IMG/VR virus record: IMGVR_UViG_3300036832_000857
Coordinates: 1-20,916 of that record
From: a virus
Strand: one strand, 5' to 3'
Length of the DNA: 20,916 bases
This document shows positions 1,732 to 20,867 of this stretch, piece after piece. The notes beneath the pieces were generated by a model. The model did not search any database and had not been told where the DNA came from. It saw only the letters and a list, made by a program, of their open reading frames with translations. Position 1 is the first letter of the stretch; the number at the start of each line of letters is the position of its first letter. The position numbers and the translations under genes were made by a program.

Positions 1732-1738
1732 GATTGCT

Positions 1739-1754
1739 CCTGTCTTAAGTCAGG
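1739..1754 (-). promoter_or_regulatory. Family A palindrome, copy 1
   Basis: On the minus strand this reads CCTGACTTAAGACAGG, with one mismatched pair in an otherwise complete 16-base dyad. It supplies the TAA stop of the upstream gene (1745-1747) and overlaps the AGGAG ribosome-binding site of the 38-residue ORF. It is one of six dispersed copies sharing CTTAAGACAG and is likely an operator or stoperator-like site. Confidence 0.6.
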
Positions 1755-2080
1755 TTGGGGATTGGTGTTCCGTCTTCTTCAAAGTAGAGGCCAGCCACTA
1801 CCTGCCAGTTGGCTTGCACACTGGCCAGGATGTCTTCATCAGCGATCCTGGATTGATCCGGTGGATCTCCAGCCGTGTCAGCCATACCGGGTCCGGCGGC
1901 AGCCAGTCTGGTGAATGCGTTGGTGGTCACTCCCCCACCGCGCAGCACATCGTCAGCCAGAGCCACGAAGGCTGGCCTGGCGTCATTCTGGAATGTCTCG
2001 GCTTGCTGAGTGCAACAGGCACGGATACGGCCGTTGAATAGTGCATCCTGGGTCAGCTGGTCGATTGTTGAGAAAGACAA
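1745..2080 (-). CDS. Conserved small tail-region protein, function unknown
   Basis: The 111-residue product opens with SFSTIDQLTQDALFNGRIRA and is predicted to be mostly helical, with no membrane segment or catalytic motif. From memory, similarly sized proteins beginning with a comparable 'STIDQLTQD..F..R' stretch are common in tail regions of actinobacteriophages without a known role. It starts with TTG, supported by an AGGAG ribosome-binding site five bases upstream. It sits between the fibre-like gene and the lysis cassette, so it may be a minor tail or baseplate component. Its stop codon lies inside family A palindrome copy 1. Function is not assigned. Confidence 0.75.
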   Translation of the reverse strand: MSFSTIDQLTQDALFNGRIRACCTQQAETFQNDARPAFVALADDVLRGGGVTTNAFTRLAAAGPGMADTAGDPPDQSRIADEDILASVQANWQVVAGLYFEEDGTPIPNLT

Positions 2081-2816: not shown

Positions 2817-4063
2817 ATGCTCCAGGCTCCGTTATCCCAAGTGTCTGTATCCCACGCTCCACCAAGCCAGAGAGTCACATCACTCAGCACCAGCGATCCA
2901 GTCAGGCTGGCTCTGGTCAGTGTCAGCATGTAGCCCACAATCACACACAAGAAGGCTTGGCCGCTATCACGCACGTGGATGGCCTCTCCGATCAGCGCTC
3001 CGAGAAGGAGATCAGCCACGCGCGCGTCTGTGTTCACGTCCAGATCGGCTGACTGAGGGTGCATGGCTGGCCACGCGCCACCTTGTAGCACAGCTGCGGC
3101 AATCGTCGCGCCCCACGCGTCAGATTGGTTGATCAGATCGTCACGGCTATAGGTGGATGTGCCGAAGCGCTTTATAGACGGTGGATCGGTGGCCGTCTGG
3201 GTGACTGGTGTGTCACCATCCACGGCTGGATCAGCGGCGCGGGTGATGCTGACACTGTTGCGCACCACCACCGGATCATTGTTGGCAAAGGTCAGTACGC
3301 ATAGCTGGTTAGGGTCCGGTCCGGAGTGCCAGTCCACCAGGATCTCCGGCCGGTAGGTGGGAAACCAGCCACCAGCCTGGCCTACCGGCAGGTAGGTGAT
3401 CATGCCGGTACGATCCACGAACATGAGGCCGATACCGGTATCAGCCGCAGTGTCCAACAGATCCCATGCCTTGGCTCCGAGGGTGGTAGAGATCACCGGA
3501 TGCAGATCAGTGGCGATGCTCCACCTGGATGGGTCGACGTTGGCAGCCGTGAGAATCCGATTCATCCGCGCTGAGATCGTCTCACCCTGGCCTACCGGTA
3601 CGGCCAGCGTTGGCAGATCCAGGTTGGCCAATCCTCCGGTGGCATCGATGATCGACACAGACGAGATCTCCGCGATCCTGTCATAAGACCAGACATCCAC
3701 CACGCCAGTGAATGCGTAGATCCAGCTGGTATCCCCTACATGACGCCACCTGATGTCCACTGCCAGATCTGGAGTGAGCATGCCAGCCCACGGACCGGAC
3801 CACGGATTGTAATCGGAGCCGTAGACAGTCAGGCCACCACTGGTGCCGTTGATCTGAGTGATGAGGCCATCAGCCGAACTGGCTCCGCTGGTGATGTCAA
3901 TCTCGGTGACATCACAAGTGATGTCCACCATGGCTCCCACCGCTGGATCTCCCCACCGATCGAAGTCCCATGTGGCCTGATCCCATGGTGGCGTAGCTCC
4001 ACCCACGGCAATCTCCACCACGATCTCCAGAGAGCCGGTTGGATAGGTCAGTATGGCGCTCAC
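2813..4063 (-). CDS. Minor tail protein, probable tail hub/baseplate component
   Basis: This 416-residue protein directly follows the tape measure gene and overlaps its stop by GTGA. It has Trp/Asp-rich repeats at both ends (PPWDQATWDFDRWGD near the N terminus, WDTDTWDNGAW near the C terminus), a pattern common in tail-tip proteins of actinobacteriophages. The middle is beta-rich with a helical insert at about 170-215 (GQGETISARMNRIL), reminiscent of gp27/hub-type folds with their LysM-like insert. It likely forms the ring at the tail tip on which the fibre protein is mounted. The region and role are well supported by order; the fold assignment is inferred. Confidence 0.75.
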   Translation of the reverse strand: MSAILTYPTGSLEIVVEIAVGGATPPWDQATWDFDRWGDPAVGAMVDITCDVTEIDITSGASSADGLITQINGTSGGLTVYGSDYNPWSGPWAGMLTPDLAVDIRWRHVGDTSWIYAFTGVVDVWSYDRIAEISSVSIIDATGGLANLDLPTLAVPVGQGETISARMNRILTAANVDPSRWSIATDLHPVISTTLGAKAWDLLDTAADTGIGLMFVDRTGMITYLPVGQAGGWFPTYRPEILVDWHSGPDPNQLCVLTFANNDPVVVRNSVSITRAADPAVDGDTPVTQTATDPPSIKRFGTSTYSRDDLINQSDAWGATIAAAVLQGGAWPAMHPQSADLDVNTDARVADLLLGALIGEAIHVRDSGQAFLCVIVGYMLTLTRASLTGSLVLSDVTLWLGGAWDTDTWDNGAWSI

Positions 4064-5859
4064 GTGGTCAGCCCGGCAATCGGTCCGTTAGCTCTCACGT
4101 AGGCTCTCAGCGCTTGCACGGTGTGTCTGCCTACTTCGGCTGGATTGGCCGTCACCGGCACGTTTATGTGTAGGTGAACGTCTCCCCCACTGCCAACGAT
4201 CTGACGTAGCAACTTCTCCGGAGTGACGATCTCACGGCCAGCTTCACCGATCACACCAAGTGTGGCCTGATCGAAGACTCCACCTTGGGCGAAGGTTGGC
4301 AGGTGGAGTGGTGGCCTCCAGTCGAAGCCTTTACCAGCCAGGCCAGCGGCCTTGGTGATGAAGTTGGTGGGCACCCTGATGGATAGGTGGATGCTGTTGA
4401 GCGCGCGGGCAAACGGATTCCAGATGGAGGTGATGCCACTGAAGACCGTATGGAAGTCACTCTTTATGGTGCTGATGGCGTGGGATATGGGCGCGAACAC
4501 ATGCGCGCTGATCCACTGCCAGGCTGCCTGGAATGGTGAGATTATGGCTTGGGTGAGGCCAGCCAGATCACGCTCCACTGTGCCTACGAAGCCGGAGAAG
4601 AAGCCGGTGATGGCCCGCACGGCTGATGATGCTGCGGCTTCCACGTCATGCCACACGCTGGCCAGAGCCGTGCGTATGGTTCCCCAGTTGCGAATGATCA
4701 GGTAGACGGCCGTAGCCACCGGCCCCAACAGGATGGCCACCAGTAGAGGCCAGTTGGCCTTTATCCAGTTGAAGGCATCTATGAAGGCCTGACGCACGGC
4801 CTTCACCTTGATAATCAAGACCACCAGCACGGCTACCACCACCACGATGGCCGTAATCAGGATCACCAGCGGATCGGCCTCTATGGCGGCATTCAGGAGC
4901 CACTGGGCTGCCGTGGCCAGCTTGGTCACTCCGGTCCAAATGGTAGTAGCCACCTTGGCTGCCGCTAGCAGGCCATTCCAGATGCGAAGGGTGATATTCA
5001 CGGCTGCCACCGCTCCACCGAGCACTCCGATACCGATAGCCAGTGGCCCGAGCCAGTTACTGTTCTGAAGTACCCAGTTGACGAAGCCGAGAAGATCAGC
5101 CTTCAGGGTGTTCACGGCCGGTAGAAGCTTGGTGCCAATCTTCACCTGCGCTTCTTCCCACGCCACACTCATCTTGGATGAGGCCGTGGCCGTGGCAGCC
5201 GCAGTGCCACCAACGGCCTTGTTCACGTCACCCAGTAAGACCTTCTGGGCTCCGAGCAAGTTGCCTTGCTTCTCCATGGTGATGATCTGTTGCTGTTGCG
5301 CAGCCGTCAGCACCACCCCGGAGCGCTTCAGGATGGCAAAGCCTTTGGCCGGATCGGAGAGAGCCTTACCCAGTAGCTTGGCATTACCGGTGAGGGTGCC
5401 GAAGCCAGCTGCCGCCAGATCAGCCGCGGCCTTGGTGGCTCCGTTGAATATGCCAGCCTGCCTGGCACTCGCGCTGGAGACGCTATGGAAGGTGGCAAGG
5501 ATGCCTTGCGCACCTTCGATCAGTACCGGTGCCACGCCAATCTGCTTACCCAGTGCCTCTGCGTAGTCTTCGGCTGCTTTGGCCGCTTCGGCTCCTCCGG
5601 CACCGGTCTTGACAAAGATGGCAGCCAGCCGGTTATTGGCCACGGCCGCGTTGGTGGCTGCGTTCACGGCCTCCTTGCCGAAGTCCACCACCTTCTCCAC
5701 TGCGTAGGCTCCAGCGATGGCATGGCCCAGTGTGGCCAGCTTGGATGCACTGGTGGAAGTTTTCTTAGCCGTATCCTCAGCCGTGGTGGCTACCTTCTTC
5801 AGGCCCACCACGGCCTTGGTGGCGTTCATCACCACATCTACGGTGAGGGTGGCAGCCAT
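4060..5859 (-). CDS. Tail tape measure protein
   Basis: At 599 residues this is the longest gene product and sets tail length; at about 0.15 nm per residue the tail would be roughly 90 nm. It is Ala-rich and helical, with three hydrophobic segments at about 270-295, 330-350 and 370-392 that probably insert into the host membrane during DNA injection. The C-terminal part has GGDVHLHINVPVTANP and a final helical segment typical of tape measure ends. It follows the tail assembly chaperone genes (TAA then ATG with no gap) and overlaps the next tail gene by GTGA. There is no obvious muramidase or peptidase domain. The assignment rests on composition, size and order, which agree well. Confidence 0.9.
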   Translation of the reverse strand: MAATLTVDVVMNATKAVVGLKKVATTAEDTAKKTSTSASKLATLGHAIAGAYAVEKVVDFGKEAVNAATNAAVANNRLAAIFVKTGAGGAEAAKAAEDYAEALGKQIGVAPVLIEGAQGILATFHSVSSASARQAGIFNGATKAAADLAAAGFGTLTGNAKLLGKALSDPAKGFAILKRSGVVLTAAQQQQIITMEKQGNLLGAQKVLLGDVNKAVGGTAAATATASSKMSVAWEEAQVKIGTKLLPAVNTLKADLLGFVNWVLQNSNWLGPLAIGIGVLGGAVAAVNITLRIWNGLLAAAKVATTIWTGVTKLATAAQWLLNAAIEADPLVILITAIVVVVAVLVVLIIKVKAVRQAFIDAFNWIKANWPLLVAILLGPVATAVYLIIRNWGTIRTALASVWHDVEAAASSAVRAITGFFSGFVGTVERDLAGLTQAIISPFQAAWQWISAHVFAPISHAISTIKSDFHTVFSGITSIWNPFARALNSIHLSIRVPTNFITKAAGLAGKGFDWRPPLHLPTFAQGGVFDQATLGVIGEAGREIVTPEKLLRQIVGSGGDVHLHINVPVTANPAEVGRHTVQALRAYVRANGPIAGLTT

Positions 5860-6659: not shown

Positions 6660-7119
6660 CGCTCACCGGCTCCTTGGCTGCCGTGGCTGCCAGCGCGGCT
6701 GGATAGGTGAATACCGGCGCGTCCTGCATGTTCCAGGAGAAGTCAGAGGTGAGGGTGGCATTCACGTCACCACCGTAGGTAGCCGAAGGCACCTCGATCA
6801 TCACCGTCCCAGTGATGACAAGGCCGGAATCGTCTGGCGTATAGGTGAAGGCCACCGTCTGGAGATCGTTATCCCAGATGTAGACGGTGATGCCGAGAGG
6901 ATCGTCCCAGTCCTGGACAAAGGTGCCGTCCAGTGAGCGGCCGTCCAGCTTCCTACCGGCTGGCTTGGTGTCTCCACATAGCGTGGTGACGGCATTGCCG
7001 TCATCGGAGTAGTTGCTGGTAATCAGGACGTTGGTGATCTGGCAGGACATATCCACGCCTCCGGTGGTGGGTCCAAGCTGAAGCTCACCATTGGTGACGC
7101 GTGATGCCGTGATTGTCAT
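6646..7119 (-). CDS. Major tail (tube) protein
   Basis: The 157-residue protein is predicted mostly beta and has segments such as DMSCQITNVLITSNYSDD and ATYGGDVNATLTSDFSW that resemble phage tube-forming proteins. It would polymerise around the tape measure to build the tail tube. The ATG overlaps the previous stop (ATGA) and has GAGGAG six bases upstream, the best ribosome-binding site in the tail block, consistent with a highly made structural protein. The gene lies two genes before the tape measure. The call rests on size, fold impression and order rather than on a diagnostic motif. Confidence 0.75.
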   Translation of the reverse strand: MTITASRVTNGELQLGPTTGGVDMSCQITNVLITSNYSDDGNAVTTLCGDTKPAGRKLDGRSLDGTFVQDWDDPLGITVYIWDNDLQTVAFTYTPDDSGLVITGTVMIEVPSATYGGDVNATLTSDFSWNMQDAPVFTYPAALAATAAKEPVSVGST

Positions 7120-7469
7120 ATTGGCTCCTCAAAGGTGCATACGTAGGATGGGAAGGAAGTCATGTGAGCCGCGCCCGGCCGATTGAACGGCTGAGATCGG
7201 CTTCTCTCGATCGGTAGGACGGCTTCCACGGCCTCTACCAGTGTCTCCAGGATGCTCCAGGCCGTACGGTCCCAGTTGCCTGGAGCCGGTGCTATGCAAT
7301 CGATCGACCACGTAACCGTGACTCCACAAGTCAGATTGTTCACTCGATCGGTAGGCAGGTTGACCAGCACGGCTGGCAGGTTCAGTGCGCCTATGTCGGT
7401 GGTGGCCCTGATGCCAGCGGCCTCCAGCTTGCTCACGATCTCCTCAGCGCGCGTCAGGGAAGCTGGCAT
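7116..7469 (-). CDS. Probable tail terminator / tail completion protein
   Basis: The 117-residue product has an N-terminal helix (RAEEIVSKLEAAGIRATTD), a beta segment ending in NLPTDRV, a strand with VTVTWSIDCIAP and a long helix (SILETLVEAVEAVLP), then PSYVCTFEEPI. The helix-strand-strand-helix order and length match tail terminator or minor tail U-type proteins that cap the tail tube and join it to the head. It lies between the adaptor and the major tail gene, the usual position. The ATG is inside family A palindrome copy 2, which may influence initiation. The fold call is an inference without a diagnostic motif. Confidence 0.6.
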   Translation of the reverse strand: MPASLTRAEEIVSKLEAAGIRATTDIGALNLPAVLVNLPTDRVNNLTCGVTVTWSIDCIAPAPGNWDRTAWSILETLVEAVEAVLPIERSRSQPFNRPGAAHMTSFPSYVCTFEEPI

Positions 7470-7483
7470 CTGTCTTAAGCCAG
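7470..7483 (-). promoter_or_regulatory. Family A palindrome, copy 2
   Basis: On the minus strand this is CTGGCTTAAGACAG, carrying the conserved half CTTAAGACAG and a weaker left half. It contains the TAA stop of the adaptor gene and abuts the ATG of the tail terminator gene. Its placement at a stop/start junction is the same as in copy 1. Confidence 0.5.
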
Positions 7484-7801
7484 GACGGTGGCCAGGTAGG
7501 GGCCTAGTAGCCGTTTGATATCGGAGTCTGACGGCAGGATCACGGCCGTACCCAGATCGGAGACACCGACCACGCCATCAGGACTGTTGCGACGTGACAG
7601 AAGCCGATTCACCAGGAGGAGCCCGGCTTCTGTCACGTCAGCTGATGGCACCTGACCGTCAGCGAACACCTGATTACGTAGAAGGATCGTGAACTTGGAT
7701 ATGACGGCTGCCACTGCCTGATCGATGGCGTCATCATCAGTGGTATCCGTGATCCGCGCCCATGCCTTGTACATATCAGAGGTGAGCCAGTCAGATGCCA
7801 T
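7475..7801 (-). CDS. Head-tail adaptor (gp6/gp15-like connector)
   Basis: The 108-residue, mostly helical protein follows the capsid gene. It begins ASDWLTSDMYKAWARITD and continues with alternating helices (DDDAIDQAVAAVISKFTILL; ADVTEAGLLLVNRLLSR), a layout typical of phage gp6-like adaptors that bind below the portal. The predicted C-terminal strand includes VSDLGTAVILPSDSD. The start ATG is four bases after the capsid stop, so translation is probably coupled. No separate 'stopper' gene is evident next to it. The assignment comes from size, helix pattern and position. Confidence 0.65.
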   Translation of the reverse strand: MASDWLTSDMYKAWARITDTTDDDAIDQAVAAVISKFTILLRNQVFADGQVPSADVTEAGLLLVNRLLSRRNSPDGVVGVSDLGTAVILPSDSDIKRLLGPYLATVLA

Positions 7802-7805
7802 GGCC

Positions 7806-9086
7806 TTAGCTACCTGCCTTGCTGGTGCTGGTCTTGCTGGTGCTGGTAGCCGCCAGTGGTGCGATTGGCGTGAATGTCACCTTGACGAAGGAGCCAGGAT
7901 CAGTGTTCAGCGCTGAAAACATGCCAGCCACGCCAATGTTGTAACCCAGTACGCCAACGTCCAGCACTGAGAGCCTTACCGGCGCGTCAGCATTTTCGTA
8001 AAACTCCATAGCGGTGGAATCCCCCACGATGAAGGTATTGGGATCGATGAAGGGATCGATCACCGGATTCAGGCCACGCAGGCTGGACAGGAAGCCAACC
8101 ACGTTAGAAGTGCCTGGAGCATTCTGGGGAGCCAGGTTGGGGAAGATCGGCCTCCCATCGGTATCCACCAGTGAAGCGATGGCGGCATAAGCGTTGAGGC
8201 CAAGCCATACCGTGTCAGGGAACATGTTGTCTACGCTCTGTTGGGCGCAGAGCACCGAAGCCTCAGCCAGCATCGTCATCAGGTTGGCAGCCGTACCGTC
8301 CCACGCCAGTGGAGATCCGGTGTTGGTGATGCTGTTGGCCATGATGGTGGCCCCGACATTGTTGGATGCCCGCGCGTAGACGGCCGCGAAGTCGGAGAAG
8401 ATCAGATCGATAGCGGCCGGTGAAGCACGCTCCACCAGCTGCCAGGAGACATCCACGGCACCGGCCCACGTTTGGAGATCGCACTTCAGGAGATCCACCT
8501 TGAAGTCTCCGGAGGCCACCTGGGTCTTCTCTGCGGTCTGTTGGCCCACGATCACATGCTGAAGGATGTGCGGCCTCTGAACTTCCATGCCCACGGCAGG
8601 CAAGGTGGGATGGCTGAAGCTGTTGACGGTGGGCCTGGCTGTCAGCCACTGGCCGATCAGTGGCCCGATGACTTGTGGTGGCACCAAGCCGGGAGCGTCC
8701 GAAGTGGTGACATCGGTGAGAGCCCGCTGGAGCCGTGATCTGGCCTGATGGTCACCATGCTGCATACGCATGTAATCCATGGCGTACTCACCAGGAGAGC
8801 GATATACCGGCTGGCCAGCGATACCTACTCCGGCCGGTGGATCGGTGGCACTGCGGGTGATCCGGGCAAGGGTGGCAGCCGCGCGTTGGTCTAGCTCCTC
8901 ACGGCTGGCCAGCACGGTAAGCCGCTCTGCGTAGGTTTCAGCCTGCGCCCGTAGCTCATCCCACGTGGCTTGCTCTGCTTCGGATAGTTCGTCTCGGCTC
9001 TCGGCTGCGGCTAGATCTTCGATCCCCCGCATACGGCCTTGTGTCTCGTCAAAACGATCTCGGATCGTCTCAATCATGGATGGCAT
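7806..9086 (-). CDS. Major capsid protein, HK97 fold with N-terminal delta domain
   Basis: The protein has 426 residues from the chosen ATG. Residues 1 to about 85 form a helical coiled-coil segment (MIETIRDRFDETQGRMRGIE, then several Glu-rich helices) that looks like the scaffold-like delta domain normally removed by the prohead protease. The rest has HK97-type capsid features: a PPQVIGPLIGQW stretch, an E-loop region, a P-domain helix and a WLGLNAYAAI segment. It builds the icosahedral shell. An in-frame GTG at 9122 exists, but the ATG at 9086 has a GAAGG ribosome-binding site about eight bases upstream, so it is preferred. The C terminus carries a short STSK tandem repeat. A candidate promoter for this gene lies at 9231-9259. 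Confidence 0.9.
   Translation of the reverse strand: MPSMIETIRDRFDETQGRMRGIEDLAAAESRDELSEAEQATWDELRAQAETYAERLTVLASREELDQRAAATLARITRSATDPPAGVGIAGQPVYRSPGEYAMDYMRMQHGDHQARSRLQRALTDVTTSDAPGLVPPQVIGPLIGQWLTARPTVNSFSHPTLPAVGMEVQRPHILQHVIVGQQTAEKTQVASGDFKVDLLKCDLQTWAGAVDVSWQLVERASPAAIDLIFSDFAAVYARASNNVGATIMANSITNTGSPLAWDGTAANLMTMLAEASVLCAQQSVDNMFPDTVWLGLNAYAAIASLVDTDGRPIFPNLAPQNAPGTSNVVGFLSSLRGLNPVIDPFIDPNTFIVGDSTAMEFYENADAPVRLSVLDVGVLGYNIGVAGMFSALNTDPGSFVKVTFTPIAPLAATSTSKTSTSKAGS
7818..7847 (-). repeat. Two tandem 15-base repeats in the capsid C terminus
   Basis: A perfect 15-base unit (CTTGCTGGTGCTGGT on the plus strand) occurs twice in a row. It encodes the repeated Thr-Ser-Thr-Ser-Lys end of the capsid protein, likely a disordered tail on the shell. 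Repeat number could vary by slippage without changing frame. Confidence 0.8.
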
Positions 9087-9230
9087 GTGCGTCACCTTCT
9101 CTGTAGTGGCTTCTGGGTCCACTCAGTGGTGACGATCCGGCTAGCTCACGGTGGCGATCTCACTCCGATGGGCTGGCTGGTGTTCCGGCCAAGCTATGTC
9201 ACCGGCAACGGTAGCACCGAAGCCGAGAAT

Positions 9231-9259
9231 ATCCTAGGAATCTGAGGTTTTCCTGTCTT
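9231..9259 (-). promoter_or_regulatory. Candidate minus-strand promoter for the capsid/tail operon
   Basis: On the minus strand AAGACA (9254-9259) is followed after 17 bases by TAGGAT (9231-9236), fitting -35 and -10 elements with an actinobacterial TAnnnT -10. Transcription would begin near 9224, about 140 bases before the capsid ATG. The -35 element lies inside the perfect family A palindrome, so a bound protein would block it. The intervening 9123-9230 has no credible gene. Confidence 0.45.
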
Positions 9260-9268
9260 AAGACAGGA
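9251..9268. promoter_or_regulatory. Family A palindrome, copy 3: perfect 18-base operator
   Basis: TCCTGTCTTAAGACAGGA is a perfect 18-base palindrome and the best copy of family A. It lies between the divergent capsid and metalloprotease genes, covers the -35 region of the minus-strand promoter and sits at the -35 distance from the plus-strand -10 element. This is the position expected of an operator that controls both directions. Confidence 0.75.
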
Positions 9269-9283
9269 GATCTGCCGTATACT
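9255..9283 (+). promoter_or_regulatory. Promoter of the metalloprotease gene, probably leaderless
   Basis: A strong -10 hexamer TATACT (9278-9283) lies six bases before the ATG at 9290, so the transcript should start at or next to the start codon. The matching -35 position (9255-9260, GTCTTA) is poor and lies within the perfect palindrome. There is no real Shine-Dalgarno. Leaderless genes are common in Actinobacteria, which fits the presumed host. Confidence 0.6.
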
Positions 9284-9289
9284 AGAGAT

Positions 9290-10219
9290 ATGACATCCAC
9301 TCAGGCAACCACCACCCTCCATGATCACTACGCCAACAACGCGCTGGCCTGCGGCCATGCCCCTACCTGCCAGAAGGTCACACTTGAGCGCAACTGGCCC
9401 ACCATCGTCAGCCATCCAGTCTGTGATTGCGGCCATGGTGAGATCTGGAGCCGTACCACCTTCCACCAGCTGCGCCAAGCCACTGGGGCCAAGAAGGCCA
9501 CGGCTCCGATCATGGAGCTAGGGGCCGATCTCTCACCGGCCGTAGCCGCCATTGAGAAGGCCTACCGTATGTTTCAGAAGGCTTACGCTGACGCCCCTGC
9601 CGTAACCATCGTGGTGAAGCGTGACTCCAAGGCATGGGGTCACACCACCGTGGCCAAGGTGTGGGCTCCGGCAGCCACCGAAGCCGCAGCCGATCGTTTT
9701 GAGATCATGATCTCCGGTGAGAATCTGCGCCGCGGAGCCGATCACGTGGCTGCCACCCTCCTGCACGAGGCCGCTCATGCTCGCAACCTGAACAAGGGGA
9801 TTCTGGACACCGACACCACCGGCCGTCATAACAAGATCTTCAAGGCCACGGCTGAGGAGCATGGCCTGTCTTGTGAGTGCGCTGGCTGGCACGGCTGGAC
9901 GGTTACGGCTCTCACCGATGACGGCCGCAAGCGCTGGAGCCAGATGATTGCTCTGATCAGCCGTGGCCTGGCCAAGTCAGCCGCTACGGCCATGCCTTCG
10001 GTGGATCACCTGCCGGTGGCTCCCACGGTGGAGGGTGGCAGCCCGGTAGCTCCTCCGGTCGGCAAGGGTGGCGTACGGATCGCTCCTCCTCGCCGTGGCA
10101 ATCACAACCTGATCAAGGCCGTTTGTGAGTGCGGCTACTCGATCCGGGCCAGCAAGGGGGTGCTGGACAAGGCCGCTCCGGTGTGTTCGGAGTGCCACTC
10201 AGCCTTCGTGGCCAGCTAG
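9290..10219 (+). CDS. SprT-like zinc metalloprotease with C-terminal zinc ribbon
   Basis: This is the only plus-strand gene. The 309-residue product has a metalloprotease signature HEAAH at 159-163 with a likely third ligand at His180 (GRHNKIF), as in SprT/Spartan-like domains. A C-terminal zinc ribbon uses Cys279, Cys281, Cys299 and Cys302. Extra Cys/His pairs near residues 21-27 and 45-49 may form another small zinc site. A basic Pro-rich linker (about 240-272) joins the domains. SprT-like proteins often act on DNA-bound proteins, so it may cut a DNA-bound protein such as a repressor or host factor; that is inference. It has its own promoter, a perfect palindromic operator and a terminator, so it is a separately controlled unit facing against the structural operons. 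It could be a lysogeny-expressed cargo gene. Confidence 0.85.
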   Translation: MTSTQATTTLHDHYANNALACGHAPTCQKVTLERNWPTIVSHPVCDCGHGEIWSRTTFHQLRQATGAKKATAPIMELGADLSPAVAAIEKAYRMFQKAYADAPAVTIVVKRDSKAWGHTTVAKVWAPAATEAAADRFEIMISGENLRRGADHVAATLLHEAAHARNLNKGILDTDTTGRHNKIFKATAEEHGLSCECAGWHGWTVTALTDDGRKRWSQMIALISRGLAKSAATAMPSVDHLPVAPTVEGGSPVAPPVGKGGVRIAPPRRGNHNLIKAVCECGYSIRASKGVLDKAAPVCSECHSAFVAS

Positions 10220-10225
10220 CCTGCC

Positions 10226-10250
10226 GGATGGGGAAAGGGAAGCCCCATCC
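10226..10250 (+). other. Hairpin just after the metalloprotease stop
   Basis: GGATGGGG (10226-10233) pairs perfectly with CCCCATCC (10243-10250) around a nine-base purine-rich loop, seven bases after the stop codon. There is no T-run, so it may protect the 3' end or aid the stronger terminator that follows. Confidence 0.5.
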
Positions 10251-10251
10251 A

Positions 10252-10440
10252 CTAGCCAAGATCCCCTGATCCGTCCTGTCTCAGATGGATCAGGGGATCT
10301 TTTATGTCATGGGTTCCGGCATGGGACACCAGTAGCTCCAGGAGAACCGTTGTGGCTTCGTCTGTGTGCCATTCCGCTCCGCACGTGCGGCAAACCAGCT
10401 TGCCGGGCTCCTGGGGCATTCTGGAGGCCTCCGAAGGCAC
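10252..10440 (-). CDS. Small zinc-finger-like protein
   Basis: The 62-residue product contains CRTCGAEWH followed by a helix (TTVLLELLVSHAGTH), giving Cys-x2-Cys plus two or three His that could bind one zinc ion. It starts with GTG one base after the stop of another Cys-rich small ORF, so the two are probably cotranslated. The last 13-15 codons run through the terminator hairpin of the convergent metalloprotease gene, so the coding end and the hairpin share sequence. Function is unknown; small zinc-finger proteins of this type in phages are often DNA-binding or host-modulating. It is the last gene of the portal-protease operon. Confidence 0.6.
   Translation of the reverse strand: MPSEASRMPQEPGKLVCRTCGAEWHTDEATTVLLELLVSHAGTHDIKDPLIHLRQDGSGDLG
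10258..10303 (+). terminator. Strong intrinsic terminator of the metalloprotease gene
   Basis: A perfect 15-base stem (10258-10272 with 10287-10301), a 14-base loop and a T4 run (10300-10303) follow the metalloprotease gene. It lies between convergent genes and might also stop minus-strand transcripts, though no T-run of that length follows on that side. The stem includes GATCCCCTGATCC, and the loop contains the half-operator-like CCTGTCT. Confidence 0.8.
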
Positions 10441-10621: not shown

Positions 10622-10778
10622 GTGTCACCACTGTCGATATGTGCCAGGGCCTCAACCAATGATCTGGCCTTCCCGTCAAGGACTAGCTGTGCAGCGGCCC
10701 TGTGATCAAGCCATTCCTGCTTCGTCATCACGGCCTTGACGATGGGGTGGGTGTCTTCATATTCGGCGTTAGGTGTCA
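10605..10778 (-). repeat. Direct repeat of 16 bases at two successive gene starts
   Basis: TGACACCTAACGCCGA (minus strand) occurs exactly at 10763-10778 and 10605-10620, 158 bases apart. Each copy forms the stop/start overlap and first codons (Thr-Pro-Asn-Ala) of a small gene. A shorter relative (CCCTAACGAC) lies near 10465. This may be a recombination boundary that moved or duplicated small genes. Confidence 0.75.
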
Positions 10779-10779
10779 C
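10618..10779 (-). CDS. Small hypothetical protein downstream of the prohead protease
   Basis: The 53-residue ORF begins with GTG, overlapping the prohead protease stop (GTGA). It reads MTPNAEYEDT and then a mainly helical part (VMTKQEWLDHRAAAQLVLDG, then ARSLVEALAHID). No known motif or membrane segment was seen. The ATGA overlap with the next gene places it in a run of three small coupled genes between protease and the convergent metalloprotease gene. The fit of overlaps on both sides argues that it is translated. Its role is unknown; this position in other phages can hold scaffold- or head-associated proteins, but nothing specific supports that here. Confidence 0.6.
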   Translation of the reverse strand: MTPNAEYEDTHPIVKAVMTKQEWLDHRAAAQLVLDGKARSLVEALAHIDSGDT

Positions 10780-11351
10780 CTGCGTATACGGCCAAAACGG
10801 TCCATGAGATCTTGCCTGGCCTCCGCTAGCTCGGTGAGTGTACGCACGGCTTCGGAGCGCTGACCGGTGACTCCGGCCATTTCATAGGCAGGGAAGGTGC
10901 ACAAGCTGACTTCACGTAGGCGTACTTCGGTGCGCTCCACCAGCTTGCGGCCTTCGGCTCTGGAGCGGCCTGGAGTCTCCACCCCATCCAGTGGGCTGAA
11001 GCCGATCGACAGGCCAGACAGGACGCCATCACGCACCAGGGTGGAAGCCTCACGGCCTCGATCGGTATCCGATAGCCGCCACTCCCCTCTGAGGCCGTCT
11101 GGAGTCTCCTGGAGATCCTTGGTGGCTCCGATCCCCCAATCTCTGACTTCATGGGACTTGATCAGGGGAATCCGGTTCATGCGCTCCCTGATGGTCTTGG
11201 TGAACGCGCCGAAACGGAACATCTCGTCATACGGTGCGCCACCGAAGTCAGAGACGGTGGCTATCCGGTTGAACGGCATGGCCAAGCCGTAGATTGTCAT
11301 GCCGTCATCGCTGACGGCATCGATGGCAAAGTCTCTTTCCAGCTGTCTCAT
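10776..11351 (-). CDS. HK97-family prohead maturation protease (peptidase S78/U35)
   Basis: The 191-residue protein shows the prohead protease layout: an N-terminal strand pair with GLAMPFNRIA (about 22-31), an FRFGAFTKTI motif (45-54), the catalytic His67 in KSHEVRDWG and Ser115 in GLSIGF, then REVSLCTFPAYE (146-157). It cleaves the delta domain of the capsid protein after procapsid assembly. It overlaps the portal gene by ATGA upstream and the next small gene by GTGA. In most HK97-like phages the capsid gene follows directly; here three small genes and an opposed metalloprotease gene come between. All expected core motifs are present. Confidence 0.93.
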   Translation of the reverse strand: MRQLERDFAIDAVSDDGMTIYGLAMPFNRIATVSDFGGAPYDEMFRFGAFTKTIRERMNRIPLIKSHEVRDWGIGATKDLQETPDGLRGEWRLSDTDRGREASTLVRDGVLSGLSIGFSPLDGVETPGRSRAEGRKLVERTEVRLREVSLCTFPAYEMAGVTGQRSEAVRTLTELAEARQDLMDRFGRIRR

Positions 11352-12712: not shown

Positions 12713-13151
12713 TGGCCTCAGAGCGTAACGCTTGGCGCAGCTTCGGTGAGGTGAATGGCCTCTTAGCGATCCTGATCATGTGGCCTCCGCAACCGTGGTT
12801 GCCATCGTCGCCACCTGGGACCATCTTGCAAGCCACTCCCTTCTTGGCCTCCGTCAACCGTGGTTGCTGGCATGAATCACATACCAGCCATTCATTGCCG
12901 TACAGCTGGCCTTGGATGGCCCATCTGACGAGGATGATAGCCATGGCGTCGAAATCAGTGGCTTGGCAAACGGCCTTGATTGTGTTCAATGCCAGCCGAT
13001 CAAGCCGCGCGTAGAGGAGATCGGCTCCGGCCAGCCACCGCAGCTTCTCAGCCAGACTGGCCATACCCAGATACCCAGAATCTGAGGCCAGGGGGGGTTC
13101 TACTTGCCTCAGATTCTGGGTATCTGGAGTCACGGTAAACGCATTTTCCAT
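12696..13151 (-). CDS. Zinc-ribbon protein between replication and head genes, function unknown
   Basis: The protein is 151 residues from the first ATG. A helical part (SLAEKLRWLAGADLLYARLD and onward to about 85) is followed by a Cys91-x2-Cys94...Cys108...Cys121 set with nearby His119 and His124, likely one zinc ribbon. It overlaps the helicase gene by 22 bases and the portal gene by 17. An alternative start (Met30, ATG at 13064) would place the 22-base inverted repeat entirely upstream of the gene; the choice is open. Position at the junction of the replication and packaging blocks suggests a DNA-binding switch or a terminase-small-subunit substitute, but nothing proves either. No family was recognised. 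Confidence 0.65.
   Translation of the reverse strand: MENAFTVTPDTQNLRQVEPPLASDSGYLGMASLAEKLRWLAGADLLYARLDRLALNTIKAVCQATDFDAMAIILVRWAIQGQLYGNEWLVCDSCQQPRLTEAKKGVACKMVPGGDDGNHGCGGHMIRIAKRPFTSPKLRQALRSEANGLAR
13067..13127 (-). repeat. 22-base perfect inverted repeat (long hairpin)
   Basis: Two arms (13067-13088 and 13106-13127) are perfect reverse complements, separated by 17 bases with a seven-G run. It starts two bases after the helicase stop codon on the minus strand and ends two bases before an in-frame ATG at 13064. The arms contain AGATACCCAGAATCTGAGG. RNA from this point would form a very stable hairpin that could end or slow transcription, or hide a ribosome-binding site. No T-run follows, so a standard intrinsic terminator is doubtful. 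Confidence 0.85.
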
Positions 13152-14614
13152 CCACTTCGTGCCTCTCCTTCGGATCTCCGCACTTGTCGTGCCACCACGC
13201 CTAGTCTGTTGCGCGCCTCTTGAACCGTCTTATTGTTGAAATGCCACTCCTTAATCTCATCCAATACTTCATGAGACCAGCGCTCACCATCAGCCAAGAT
13301 CTGTCTTAAGACAGACATACAAAACTCGATCTCAGTAACCTTCACCACTGAATCTTCACTTGGCTCCGGTGCCTTCGGTGCTGCGCCAAGATCGTCAGCC
13401 CGCAGAGCTACCGGACCGGTCCAGGTGACGTAGGCCACGCCAAGCTGATCGTGAGGAGTGAGCCGGAATCCGAGAGCCTGCGGCCGCTCCATCAGATTGG
13501 ACTTGGTACAGGCCAGCACGCGCATGCTCTCGTCATCTGGGTTAACTCCGATAAGCCAGCCCGCGCGCGCCGCGCCCACAATGCCAATCGATCCCCCGCC
13601 GCGGTAGATGGCCTTGGCCCCACCTTCTTTGCGTAGGTGGCGCAGCATCACTATGGCGCAGCCGGTACGGCCAGCCACCTGGCGTACATGCCTGAGAGTG
13701 CGTCTGATGTCGGAATCCTTGTAGGTGTCCACCCTGGCTGATAGGTACTCAGCCAGGACATCCACGATCACCAGCCGCGCCCCGGTAAGCCTGATCTTGG
13801 CCTCCAGGAGATCCAGATCGGTAGGGATGTCAAACGGTGAATCCAGGCTGGCCAGAGTCACCCCATCGATGAAATGCACTCGATCCAGATCGGCCGCAGC
13901 TGCGTTCAGCCGGTTAATGATCGTGTCATGTACGTCATCTTCACCGGCCAGCAAGATCACTCCAGCCGGATCGGAGCCACCAGAGCCATCCGGCATCTTG
14001 GCTCCGTTGGTGATACGGCTGGTGAGATCCAGGAGCATGGTTGACTTGCCCGCGTCCGGATCACCATCACAGATCACCAGCTTTCCGGCTGGCAGCCACC
14101 CTGGCCAGATCCACTCCACCTGCCTGGCCTTGATCTCTGACAACTTGTAGGCCAGCAACATGCGTGGTTGGCTGCCAGAGGCCTCTGACGGCTTCGGAGA
14201 GCCGTTGGCCGTGAGATCGGTGATGCCTACGGCCGTCAGGTGGCCGTGAGCCTTCACAAAGTCACCGTGGAAAACCAGCCAAGTCCAGAGGCCGAAGGCA
14301 TCGCGCGGCGATCTGGTGGGTATGCCTGTCTCGGCTGCCACCGTCTCTGACCAGACGGCACAGAAGCCGTCATCGCCATAGACGGTGGCACTAGGGGTGT
14401 CAGCCGATTGGCTGGAGTGCGGAGAGTGCCAGTGTTCATCACCGTTTCGATCCTGACGCACCAGATTCCAGCCCAGAGCGGCCAGGATCTCCGAGCAAGT
14501 AACCAGCTGGTTAAACCGGCTGCCAGCCAGGTGGCCAGTGTAAGCCTTGGTTTGCTCTGTTGACTCTGGCAGTGGTGGCAAGGTTTCGATCAGATCAGAC
14601 CATTGGTAGGGCAT
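13130..14614 (-). CDS. RepA-like AAA ATPase, replicative helicase or loader
   Basis: The 494-residue protein has a central P-loop domain of the AAA_25/RepA type: Walker A GDPDAGKST at 184-192, a GEDD motif near 224-227, Walker B LVIVDV at 281-286 and a sensor-like MLRHLRKEGG near 323-332. The N-terminal 130 residues carry a segment often attached to such ATPases (SATVYGDDGFCAVWSE). The C-terminal region is helical (EVLDEIKEWHFNN...ARNRLGVVARQ), probably a winged-helix for DNA binding. It would unwind DNA at the phage origin with the primase encoded upstream, whose stop overlaps its start (TGATG). A family A palindrome lies inside its 3' part, and a long hairpin follows its stop. Confidence 0.88.
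   Translation of the reverse strand: MPYQWSDLIETLPPLPESTEQTKAYTGHLAGSRFNQLVTCSEILAALGWNLVRQDRNGDEHWHSPHSSQSADTPSATVYGDDGFCAVWSETVAAETGIPTRSPRDAFGLWTWLVFHGDFVKAHGHLTAVGITDLTANGSPKPSEASGSQPRMLLAYKLSEIKARQVEWIWPGWLPAGKLVICDGDPDAGKSTMLLDLTSRITNGAKMPDGSGGSDPAGVILLAGEDDVHDTIINRLNAAAADLDRVHFIDGVTLASLDSPFDIPTDLDLLEAKIRLTGARLVIVDVLAEYLSARVDTYKDSDIRRTLRHVRQVAGRTGCAIVMLRHLRKEGGAKAIYRGGGSIGIVGAARAGWLIGVNPDDESMRVLACTKSNLMERPQALGFRLTPHDQLGVAYVTWTGPVALRADDLGAAPKAPEPSEDSVVKVTEIEFCMSVLRQILADGERWSHEVLDEIKEWHFNNKTVQEARNRLGVVARQVRRSEGEARSGWKMRLP
13300..13315. promoter_or_regulatory. Family A palindrome, copy 4, inside the helicase gene
   Basis: TCTGTCTTAAGACAGA is a perfect 16-base palindrome within coding sequence, encoding the Met-Ser-Val-Leu-Arg-Gln part of the helicase C-terminal region. 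An intragenic copy is not a normal promoter operator. It fits a roadblock or stoperator-type site, or another genome-wide role such as DNA organisation. Confidence 0.6.
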
Positions 14615-15228
14615 CAGTGTTGGCTCACTCTCATTGTCACCGGCACTTGACAGCCGATCTTCCAGTTAATCGATCCAGGCAGCCGCATCAGCCTGTCCAG
14701 TGTGAATACGTCATCCAGGTGGACGCGCGCCTCTCTAGCCAGTTGTTGCCACAACAGACGCCACCTAGCCATCACTCCTTGTGCATCAGCGGCCTCTAGT
14801 GGCTCCGGAGCCGTCCAGTAGCACTGGACGCCATAGCCGGTGTTAACCACGATGTCTGGCCGGTATGGGTACCGTCTGATCAGCATGGCCGCTTCTGCCA
14901 GATCCTTTGGCAGGTTGGGGATCTGGTGTGCTGGCCCGGCAATGTCCACATCGATCCAGAGCGCGGGGATGGAGTGGCACTCAGCCACTCCACCACGCTT
15001 ACCGTCCGGCAGGATCTCGCGCCTAGGTGCCACCCCTAGCCATAGGTTGCCAGCTTCACCGTGTCTCACGATCAGTGGCCGTAGCGTCTCTAGCTCCCCG
15101 ATGGCAGCCCACTCCGTCTTGCGTCTACCGGTGGAGCAATCCTCAGCAAACAAGGTGACGTATCCGGTATCGGAGTGTGCGTATAGCCTGCTCAGAAAAT
15201 CAAGCGCGAGATCTGCGTCTACGTTCAT
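14614..15228 (-). CDS. AEP-superfamily primase (RepB/prim-pol type)
   Basis: The 204-residue protein has the small primase core of the archaeo-eukaryotic primase superfamily. The metal-binding DVD (93-95, in ALWIDVDI) is motif I, the GYGVQCYW segment (131-138) corresponds to the motif II strand, with Gln where many members carry His, and LDRLMRLPGSINWK (177-190) is the conserved motif III region. It would lay down primers for the neighbouring RepA-like helicase, an arrangement known from small phages and plasmids. It overlaps the SSB-like gene by ATGA and the helicase gene by one base. No separate polymerase gene is present, so elongation is expected to use the host replisome. Confidence 0.85.
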   Translation of the reverse strand: MNVDADLALDFLSRLYAHSDTGYVTLFAEDCSTGRRKTEWAAIGELETLRPLIVRHGEAGNLWLGVAPRREILPDGKRGGVAECHSIPALWIDVDIAGPAHQIPNLPKDLAEAAMLIRRYPYRPDIVVNTGYGVQCYWTAPEPLEAADAQGVMARWRLLWQQLAREARVHLDDVFTLDRLMRLPGSINWKIGCQVPVTMRVSQH

Positions 15229-16712: not shown

Positions 16713-16728
16713 TTCTTCTCCATTCCTT

Positions 16729-16742
16729 CTGTCTTAAGTCAG
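16729..16742 (-). promoter_or_regulatory. Family A palindrome, copy 5
   Basis: On the minus strand this reads CTGACTTAAGACAG, with the conserved CTTAAGACAG half. It lies in the short gap between a small ORF and the 55-residue gene that leads the exonuclease-replication run. No clear -10 hexamer follows at the proper distance, so it is better seen as an operator or roadblock than as a promoter. Confidence 0.55.
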
Positions 16743-16746
16743 TACG

Positions 16747-17408: not shown

Positions 17409-17654
17409 TTAAGCCTGCAAGTAGTGGCCAGGCTGGCCACCCAACGTCTTGGCCAATGCCACGCGATGGCACTGTTTCTCTGGTGCCGCCTTGCCTGTCT
17501 CCCACCGAGATACCGTCATGCCGCTTACGCCAATGGCTTGGCCCAGTTCATTCTGGCTGAGGCCAAGTCTGGCGCGGATGCGCCGTATTTTCCTGGCCAC
17601 TGGGCCAAGTGGTGGGCCGTCAACTTCGTTAGCTGCACTAATGCCCATGGGCAT
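17409..17654 (-). CDS. XRE-family (Cro/C1-type) transcriptional regulator
   Basis: The 81-residue protein has one classic helix-turn-helix: KIRRIRARLGLSQNELGQAI (helices 1-2) followed by GVSGMTVSRWETGKAAP (turn and recognition helix 3). There is no C-terminal peptidase or dimerisation domain, so it is Cro-like or a minimal repressor. A stop codon lies just two codons upstream, which fixes the start at or after 17654. The start codon is inside a 14-base palindrome, and a family B palindrome lies 76 bases upstream, both possible autoregulatory sites. It is the only recognisable sequence-specific regulator in the window, so it is the leading candidate to bind family A and/or family B sites. Confidence 0.85.
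   Translation of the reverse strand: MPMGISAANEVDGPPLGPVARKIRRIRARLGLSQNELGQAIGVSGMTVSRWETGKAAPEKQCHRVALAKTLGGQPGHYLQA
17641..17654. promoter_or_regulatory. Palindrome covering the XRE start codon
   Basis: ATGCCCATGGGCAT is a perfect 14-base palindrome whose first three minus-strand bases are the XRE start codon. It could act as an operator or as a small hairpin that hides the start. It also encodes Met-Pro-Met-Gly, so chance is possible. Confidence 0.4.
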
Positions 17655-19425: not shown

Positions 19426-20867
19426 AAGGCACTCCAGCTAGCGGGCTGGACCTTGGTGATCTTCCTACCGGCCTCGAGGTGAGCCAGCAAGGTGGCTCTG
19501 GCTGCATCGATGTCAGCCGTGCGGCTTCTTCTCTGCGGAATGTCTCCAGGTGAGTCAGCCGAAGCCAGAGCCAGAGCGGAATCCAAGACCGGATCTCCCA
19601 TGTGCACCACCAGCCGACCGATACAGCCTTCGTAGAAGCCAGCTGATGCCCGTTGTAGGTCAGCTGCGTTGATATTGGCCACTTCGGTGCGTCCAGAGCA
19701 CACGCGGTTAACCAGAGCCTCTACCGGAGTCCTGGCTGCCACGGCTACTACCGGAGGCTTCCAGCGCTCAAGTAGCTCATCCAGCCGTGCTGCCAGCAAG
19801 GCCAGTACTGATCCTTCGGATTCGTCGAAGCTGGCAGCCAGATCCACCCCAGTGCGCTCATCTTCTCTGATCCAGGCCACGGCTATGGAGCCATGGCGTA
19901 GCTCCGGTCCGGCATCCACCCCTAGACAGATCATCCCCGGAGTGTCAGGCAGCGGCGCGCGATGCTCCAGACAGGCAGCCCAGATGCCTTCAGGTAGATA
20001 AGGGTGCATCACCATCACCGGTCGGCACAACACTTCTGTCTCGAATACGTCAGGTGGATCGGTTCGGTACTCCTGCTCGATCGTCTCCAGATCGATCAGG
20101 TAGCCCAGAGCCGGATTGGCTTGCACCCACCCTCTGGGGTCGGAGCGTTCATAGTCAGGGGATGCGCTCCAGGAGTAGAAGCCGATCGGTGAGGCCGCAT
20201 CAGCCATCCAGGCTTCACCTTGGGCAATGAGGGTGCGCAGCACGATCGATGACATATCCCCTTCATTGGAGATGCTCCAAAACTGGCTGGACGGCCGTGC
20301 TCGTCTGGTCTTCTCCAGAGCGGCATACGCTCTCCAGTCGGTGGCCTCACGTAGCTCATCCAGCACCACCAGATCACCATGCAAGCCCCTACCGGCTCCG
20401 CGGGTGGAAGCCGTCACCTTGTAGCGGCCTTTGGCTCCGATTCGGAATGACTCCCTACCATTCTGGTGGTGAACGTCCCACGGATCTAAGCCAGCTTCGG
20501 TGGCCGTCTCTAGCGCATCAGTCCAAGACTCCAGAGCCACATCACGATTCTGGGCGGCACCAATGATCTCCTCACCCCAGAGGCACATGCCACCAAGTAC
20601 GCGCATCGTGGTCAGCTTGGTCTTGCCATTCTGCCGGGCTGCCAAGGCCAGCACCGTGCGTCTACGCCACTTGCCAGCCGAAGTCTCCAACGCTTGGTCT
20701 AGCAACCACTGTTGCCATGGCAGGATGTCCAGGCTTAAGACAGATTTACAGAAGAAGACTAGCTCCGGACCCATTGATTTGCCACGGCCTCTGCGCGTTC
20801 CCACCCGCGGTTCAGTGCTGCCGTAGATCGTTGGTTTCCGTTTGATTGCTGGACGTTTTGCCGGCAT
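19422..20867 (-). CDS. Terminase large subunit
   Basis: The 481-residue protein has an N-terminal ATPase domain with Walker A ARQNGKT (78-83, variant form common in actinobacteriophages), Walker B LVVLDE (166-171) and a downstream coupling region near SNEGD (200-204). A C-terminal RNase H-like nuclease domain begins near GVDAG (Asp318). It pumps DNA into the procapsid and cuts the concatemer. The first 35 residues are basic (KRPAIKRKP, RRGRGK). No small terminase gene was recognised next to it. If the ends join, the HNH gene is its upstream neighbour; its downstream neighbour is DUF3846, not portal. A degenerate family A site lies within its 5' part. Confidence 0.93.
   Translation of the reverse strand: MPAKRPAIKRKPTIYGSTEPRVGTRRGRGKSMGPELVFFCKSVLSLDILPWQQWLLDQALETSAGKWRRRTVLALAARQNGKTKLTTMRVLGGMCLWGEEIIGAAQNRDVALESWTDALETATEAGLDPWDVHHQNGRESFRIGAKGRYKVTASTRGAGRGLHGDLVVLDELREATDWRAYAALEKTRRARPSSQFWSISNEGDMSSIVLRTLIAQGEAWMADAASPIGFYSWSASPDYERSDPRGWVQANPALGYLIDLETIEQEYRTDPPDVFETEVLCRPVMVMHPYLPEGIWAACLEHRAPLPDTPGMICLGVDAGPELRHGSIAVAWIREDERTGVDLAASFDESEGSVLALLAARLDELLERWKPPVVAVAARTPVEALVNRVCSGRTEVANINAADLQRASAGFYEGCIGRLVVHMGDPVLDSALALASADSPGDIPQRRSRTADIDAARATLLAHLEAGRKITKVQPASWSAF
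20730..20743 (+). promoter_or_regulatory. Family A palindrome, degenerate copy 6
   Basis: CAGGCTTAAGACAG keeps the conserved CTTAAGACAG half on the plus strand, while the other half has two mismatches. It lies inside the terminase gene (the codons for Ser-Val-Leu-Ser-Leu). It is the only copy with the conserved half on the plus strand, so it may be chance. Confidence 0.35.

Follow-up and report, generated by a model that had tools for sequence, protein, structure and literature searches.

Introduction

Several described systems come close to the locus studied here. The stoperators of the Cluster A mycobacteriophages (L5, TipsytheTRex) are asymmetric 13-bp sites, and their repressor is a monomeric HTH protein (PMC9283540). 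Phage phiC31 also has a dispersed inverted repeat. In the ImmA/ImmR and IrrE/DdrO systems, an HExxH protease is linked with a regulated promoter. Finally, the SPRTN/Spartan and SprT proteases (PF10263, phrog_6361) share a zincin fold, with an HExxH motif, a distal histidine, and a C-terminal zinc ribbon. Structural homology has been reported to place proteins of the SprT-like kind in many mycobacteriophages, where they are widespread (PMC12363180). A tested function for them in phages was not found in the literature searched. A link between a phage SprT-like protein and a repressor is apparently undescribed there too, in a mainly open-access literature.

We analysed a virus record of 20,916 bp (the window). 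It contains a SprT-like protease gene, of the DNA-repair (Spartan) type, with a dispersed palindrome over its promoter. As in the Cluster A phages, the sites are short, dispersed over the genome, often intragenic, and predicted to act together with an early-promoter operator. In contrast, they are palindromic, linked to a protease gene, and common to unrelated phage groups. Compared with phiC31, the operator sequence differs. The phiC31 repressor is not SprT-related, and the idea that it might be a SprT fusion was rejected for this reason. Likeness to ImmA/ImmR and IrrE/DdrO stops at the protease linked with a regulated promoter. Here the protease is of another family, there is no adjacent repressor gene, and the protease gene itself would be under the operator. 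Compared with SPRTN and SprT, the window protein falls below the Pfam cut-off, is encoded by a phage gene under a dispersed operator, and has an extra N-terminal Cys/His extension that it shares with one relative (L011).

Results

The SprT gene, its promoter, and its terminator

All window genes with family matches (ORF calls and profile searches) are on the minus strand, except the SprT gene. Thus, it is the only recognizable plus-strand gene, as an earlier note on this DNA had stated. The minus-strand set is of the actinophage type: terminase, portal, prohead protease, capsid, tail genes, endolysin, and HNH. Other minus-strand genes encode an integrase, an XRE protein, a RusA-like resolvase, an exonuclease, and a primase/helicase. 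The latter (13130-15228) consists of two ORFs, and its counterpart in L011 is a single ORF of 725 aa. Rfam gave no match in the window.

The earlier note described a near-perfect -10 element placed for a leaderless transcript. The spacing of TATACT is indeed consistent with a leaderless start at the ATG, and the SprT mRNA is probably leaderless. A sigma-70 scan of both strands did not report this promoter, because the palindrome occupies the position of the -35 hexamer and the -35 is poor. The strong terminator was also recovered, with a predicted stem longer than the 15 bases first claimed (Table 1). A small Cys-rich ORF (10252-10440, minus strand) overlaps this terminator, and a weak match is similarly placed in L011.

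The same note read the intergenic region as a bidirectional switch, with the palindrome also lying on the -35 of a capsid promoter. The results support the part in which the palindrome gives the protease gene its own control; they do not support the capsid side. The sigma-70 scan was empty there on both strands, and by eye no obvious conserved minus-strand -10 toward the capsid gene was seen in the syntenic phage L011. The bidirectional capsid promoter was rejected on these two results. The capsid start was re-read as the ATG at 9086, not the GTG of the ORF at 9122.

Table 1. Features of the SprT locus and palindrome copies in the window.
Feature	Coordinates	Strand	Remarks
SprT/SPRTN-type zinc metalloprotease gene	9290..10219	+	309 aa; ORF call, profile matches
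N-terminal Cys/His-containing extension	9290..9514	+	about residues 1-75; low model confidence
Predicted zinc site H159-E160-x-x-H163 + H180	9764..9829	+	invariant in 16 relatives aligned
C-terminal zinc ribbon C279-x-C281 ... C299-x-x-C302	10124..10195	+	invariant in 16 relatives aligned
-10 element TATACT	9278..9283	+	6 nt to ATG at 9290; leaderless-type spacing
Perfect 18-bp palindrome TCCTGTCTTAAGACAGGA, core TGnCTTAAGnCA	9251..9268		over SprT -35 region; proposed operator
Intrinsic terminator	10258..10301	+	18-bp stem, -33 kcal/mol, z -6.1, short T run after
Major capsid gene	7806..9086	-	divergent from SprT gene
Prohead protease gene	10776..11351	-	other flank of SprT gene
81-aa XRE-type HTH protein	17409..17654	-	adjoins integrase; possible phage repressor
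Palindrome copy, 2 mismatches	1738..1755		intergenic, upstream of endolysin
Palindrome copy, 3 mismatches	3676..3693		within tail gene
Palindrome copy, 3 mismatches	7468..7485		start of gene 7116-7469; equivalent-place site in L277
Palindrome copy, 4 mismatches of 18, core perfect	13299..13316		within AAA/primase gene
Palindrome copy, 3 mismatches	16727..16744		upstream of exonuclease gene; comparable L011 site
Palindrome copy, 4 mismatches	20728..20745		near terminase gene start; comparable L011 site

Palindrome copies in the window

The best copy of the palindrome covers the SprT -35 region, as first noticed, and it is perfect over 18 bp. Its centre is at about -30 relative to the predicted SprT start. 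The window has 7 copies with at most 4 mismatches in 20.9 kb, compared with 0.1 in dinucleotide shuffles. A lone perfect palindrome of this length is not rare (at least 18 bp in 4 of 60 shuffles). It means that the repetition of the palindrome is above chance, and not the one perfect copy. The conserved motif extends beyond an AflII restriction site (CTTAAG) and is enriched, and a restriction-site reading was rejected on these grounds.

Family and fold of the protein

The profile PF10263 (SprT-like) matches the window protein with an E-value of 0.001 and a score of 19.4, below the cut-off of 25.6; phrog_6361 matches at 5e-30. PF10263 matches 15 of the 16 aligned members (best E 2e-7), and two relatives pass the cut-off. 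The N-terminal Cys/His extension is present only in the window protein and L011 among the aligned relatives. The AlphaFold2 model is confident at about residues 80-110 and 140-230, and the N-terminal extension is poorly modelled.

The best solved-structure match of this model is SPRTN 6mdw (Z 9.0, rmsd 4.0, 111 residues aligned). The next match has Z 7.0, and IrrE/PprI reach Z 3.8-4.5 with the same aligner. Foldseek gave no significant match for the model, and a PDB sequence search with the protein gave zero matches; the assignment to the SPRTN fold comes from the second-look aligner and Pfam. The Pfam family M78 (ImmA/IrrE) matches only 1 of 16 members, with E 0.078. On the model and the profiles, the window protein is classed as SprT/SPRTN-type and not as ImmA-type. 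The analogy with ImmA raised before is functional only, and the family of the protein is SprT/SPRTN.

Relatives of the window

Related viral contigs were gathered by protein search. One of them, L011, has a record of 22.2 kb; it shares synteny with the window, and identity is about 40-70%. The earlier note had pointed to the divergent arrangement as something related phages might share. In L011, L004/L006, and L005, the SprT gene is beside the capsid gene on the opposite strand. The prohead protease is on its other flank in L011 and L004, and the L005 and L006 records end earlier. In L003, the SprT gene sits among replication genes. In L012, it adjoins a divergent gene for a ParB-like HTH protein (L012:3657-4337), with palindromes in between.

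The core TGnCTTAAGnCA, exact or with one mismatch, is on the SprT promoter in L011, L004/L006, L005, L003, and L012. It is present in every SprT-bearing relative of this clade, the second group described below included, with several to 27 copies and fewer in short fragments. The earlier note would have given up its reading for relatives that carry the gene without the palindrome; none appeared within this SprT clade.

By eye, -10-like hexamers are located 6-7 nt before the ATG in L011 (TACACT), L003 (TACAGT), and L012 (TATCAT). In L004 and L005, the SprT gene is preceded by a leader that includes a ribosome site, instead of the leaderless-type spacing. L004 and L005 also carry a promoter module 5 times. 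Relative to the -10, its CRP-like site is at -49/-50 and its palindrome at -19 to -22, followed by CATACT. Repeats of the module precede small plus-strand genes downstream of SprT (L004:10835-10890; L005:5270-5325 and 5675-5730). The distance from the palindrome to the -10 varies among the window-type relatives.

A second group of actinophages with the same palindrome

A scan with the DNA motif led to L036, a 40-kb record with many palindrome copies that encodes a SprT relative. Using this protein as the search start, we obtained 55 loci of actinophages of about 40 kb (group B). Their palindrome density is 12.9 per 10 kb (861 sites in 666 kb), compared with a background of 0.46 in 76 control loci. 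Of 54 loci tested, 53 have a site or near-site (at most 2 mismatches) no more than 140 bp upstream of the SprT match. The combined pattern of catalytic site and zinc ribbon is found in 52 of 55 loci.

The gene map of this group is conserved. The divergent arrangement is found here too, on the terminase side, with SprT divergent from the terminase gene. The terminase resembles those of Streptomyces phages. One such phage, Romero, in which SprT was not found, has 0 exact and 2 near sites in 46 kb. Four loci were read at 20 kb. Their sites concentrate on the SprT side (L106, 24/27; L130, 24/24; L095, 18/19; L088, 21/24), and the operator-rich region begins with the SprT gene or close to it. By eye, sites are also located downstream of a promoter of the TTGACA...TACCTT type. 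An exact copy of a CRP/GlxR-like sequence, TGTGA-n6-TCACA, occurs upstream of SprT in 40 of 53 loci (L106:9874-9889; same region in L080-L134), and a control pattern in none.

By phmmer, the SprT-like protein is the only one clearly common to both phage groups. A profile search adds one clear cross-group match, a common nuclease family (best E 6e-6). Profiles run on ORFs of at least 30 aa from both groups recognized no shared DNA-binding protein that could be a phage repressor. The XRE protein and the ParB-like protein of L012 were considered as shared regulators, and profile search did not find them across the set.

Control searches and relatives without SprT

SprT homology was the means of gathering the window-kind contigs (group A), and their half of the association is in part an effect of ascertainment. 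Among 77 loci picked only by the exact 14-mer CTGACTTAAGTCAG, at least 3 exact sites occurred in one, L250, which is the SprT-bearing phage of L011. In scans by motif alone, dispersed arrays were found solely in SprT phages or their fragments. A scan for tandem sites gave, besides these, only 15-nt tandem repeats. Those of L148, L158, L162, and L169 mimic the motif in otherwise unrelated phages and were read as unrelated. L013 has an array without SprT, and it is uninformative either way because its record appears to stop short of the corresponding place.

A portal-protein search yielded two relatives by virion genes. The 16.9 kb read of G212 (portal 70% identical), a record without SprT, has zero sites even at two mismatches. 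The 20.5-kb record of G213 (portal 78%), also lacking SprT, has one exact site and three with a single mismatch; one of its sites is at the place equivalent to window 7471. Therefore, the array is not strictly dependent on SprT. The array goes with SprT, and it can persist sparsely without it, or the G213 record may be incomplete, with the SprT gene outside it.

Other SprT phages have other repeats. In phiAsp2 (L266), a different dispersed palindrome, TTGAC-n8-GTCAA, has 30 copies with at most 1 mismatch, compared with 0.2, and one copy overlaps the SprT promoter. Samy (L175), annotated as partly phiC31-like, has a dispersed inverted repeat CGCGT-n10-ACGCG; a copy that differs at one position lies 74 bases upstream of the SprT start. 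Its SprT gene directly precedes a gene annotated as immunity repressor. A -10-like hexamer is seen by eye 6-7 nt before the SprT ATG in both phages. The same repeat-finding method recovered in phiC31 15 copies of TACTC-n4-GAGTA, presumably the conserved inverted repeats already described for this phage. The motif of the window is absent from the SprT homologues of phiAsp2, Samy, and Attoomi. It is also absent from the SprT-like genes of actinobacterial plasmids (L270-L274), several of which have parA and/or ssb nearby. SprT control by a dispersed operator of the phage's own may be a wider habit, for which two cases are no proof.

Discussion

Our preferred reading, which we consider somewhat probable, is that the window is from a small actinophage in which the SprT gene is early and under an operator. 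It would be repressed via the dispersed, stoperator-like palindrome, and its product would act on DNA-bound proteins. A regulator on TGnCTTAAGnCA would cover the -35 region and keep the SprT promoter off. The scattered sites would put the SprT unit in a genome-wide regulon of the stoperator kind. Once the site is freed, a short, probably leaderless mRNA would be transcribed in the direction opposite to the virion genes, ending at the hairpin. The Spartan-type protease with its zinc ribbon would then digest proteins bound or crosslinked to DNA. Its candidate substrates are replication-blocking crosslinks, host or defence proteins, and the regulator itself.

The gene, the promoter-like elements, the putative operator copies, the terminator, the fold class, the co-occurrence, and the conserved arrangement are shown by the sequences. 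We infer that the palindrome represses rather than activates and that the substrates are DNA-bound proteins; the early timing of SprT is deduced from gene position in other phages. The variable distance from palindrome to -10 and the sites downstream of the promoter fit an operator better than a -35 box, and they favour repression. Activators can bind near -30, as T4 MotA does, and an activator of this type would also fit the geometry in the window.

The protease and the palindrome are found together in actinobacterial viruses that are otherwise unrelated, which points to a single regulatory system comprising both. The candidates for the binder are SprT itself or an unrecognized phage repressor, and we favour a phage protein on the sequence evidence. 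A bolder version is more doubtful: the Spartan-type protease would itself be the sequence-specific binder of the palindrome, or a protease dedicated to the protein that binds it, and the operator would have moved with the protease between unrelated actinophages.

Among the narrower explanations, it is unlikely that the SprT-like protein is itself the sequence-specific binder of TGnCTTAAGnCA, as an autoregulated early protein that returns to shut early transcription. SprT is the only strongly shared binder candidate found in the present comparison, being the sole strongly shared protein of two otherwise unrelated groups with the same operator. The site is nearly always on the promoter or leader of the SprT gene itself, and the zinc ribbon of the protein is conserved. 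The arrays found by motif only and the lack of both gene and array in G212 point the same way. Nevertheless, G213 with its sparse array is the main evidence against SprT as the sole binder. The homologues in phiAsp2, Samy, Attoomi, and plasmids do without this motif, and SprT near other repeats in phiAsp2 and Samy means that the binder need not be SprT. To our knowledge, no sequence-specific DNA binding is known for SprT proteins.

A regulator encoded by the host is a less probable binder. SprT would then either belong to the regulon of this host protein or serve to remove it by proteolysis. This could account for one operator in phages that share no other strongly similar protein, and the CRP/GlxR-like sites on the promoters of several relatives mean that host factors may act there. 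However, the extended site CTGNCTTAAGNCAG had 8 matches in 198 Actinomycetota genomes, compared with 9 for the reversed control. With no excess, a widespread host regulon is unlikely, and we rejected it. Relatives and other actinophages without SprT also mostly lack the site.

We give an equally low probability to a moron-type cargo gene whose own promoter happened upon a phage operator. The gene has its own promoter and terminator, on the opposite strand within the late block, and it is absent from the G212 and G213 records, which may be incomplete. In contrast, the operator is linked to the SprT promoter in many divergent phages, and SprT opens, or nearly opens, the operator-rich region in the four loci of the about 40-kb group. 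The earlier note had allowed equally for a host-benefit or anti-defence cargo gene. Pure host benefit is now less likely because of the link of SprT to a regulatory palindrome; an anti-defence role may still apply.

It is very improbable that the protease works as an ImmA-like switch, cleaving a palindrome-bound XRE repressor while the same site controls capsid transcription: the XRE gene beside the integrase has a diverged relative in L011 and the palindrome lies between divergent genes, but this sole recognized XRE gene is 7.2 kb from the SprT gene and not adjacent, no counterpart was detected in the about 40-kb group with the same operator, M78 matches a single member and the IrrE/PprI Z values are well below that of SPRTN, and no capsid promoter was detected. 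The XRE protein as an ImmR-like target, which the earlier note suggested testing, found no specific support here, although the protease may still act on it.

The preferred reading, an early SprT gene under a dispersed phage operator, ties one SprT clade to a defined operator, TGnCTTAAGnCA. This gives a direct route to testing the function. The palindrome is also a simple marker of this gene set in environmental phage genomes. If the bolder version were true, the regulatory system would be built around a protease and differ from CI/LexA, ImmA/ImmR, and the L5 stoperators. A protease that either binds the palindrome or removes what binds it would represent a new way of controlling a phage genetic switch.
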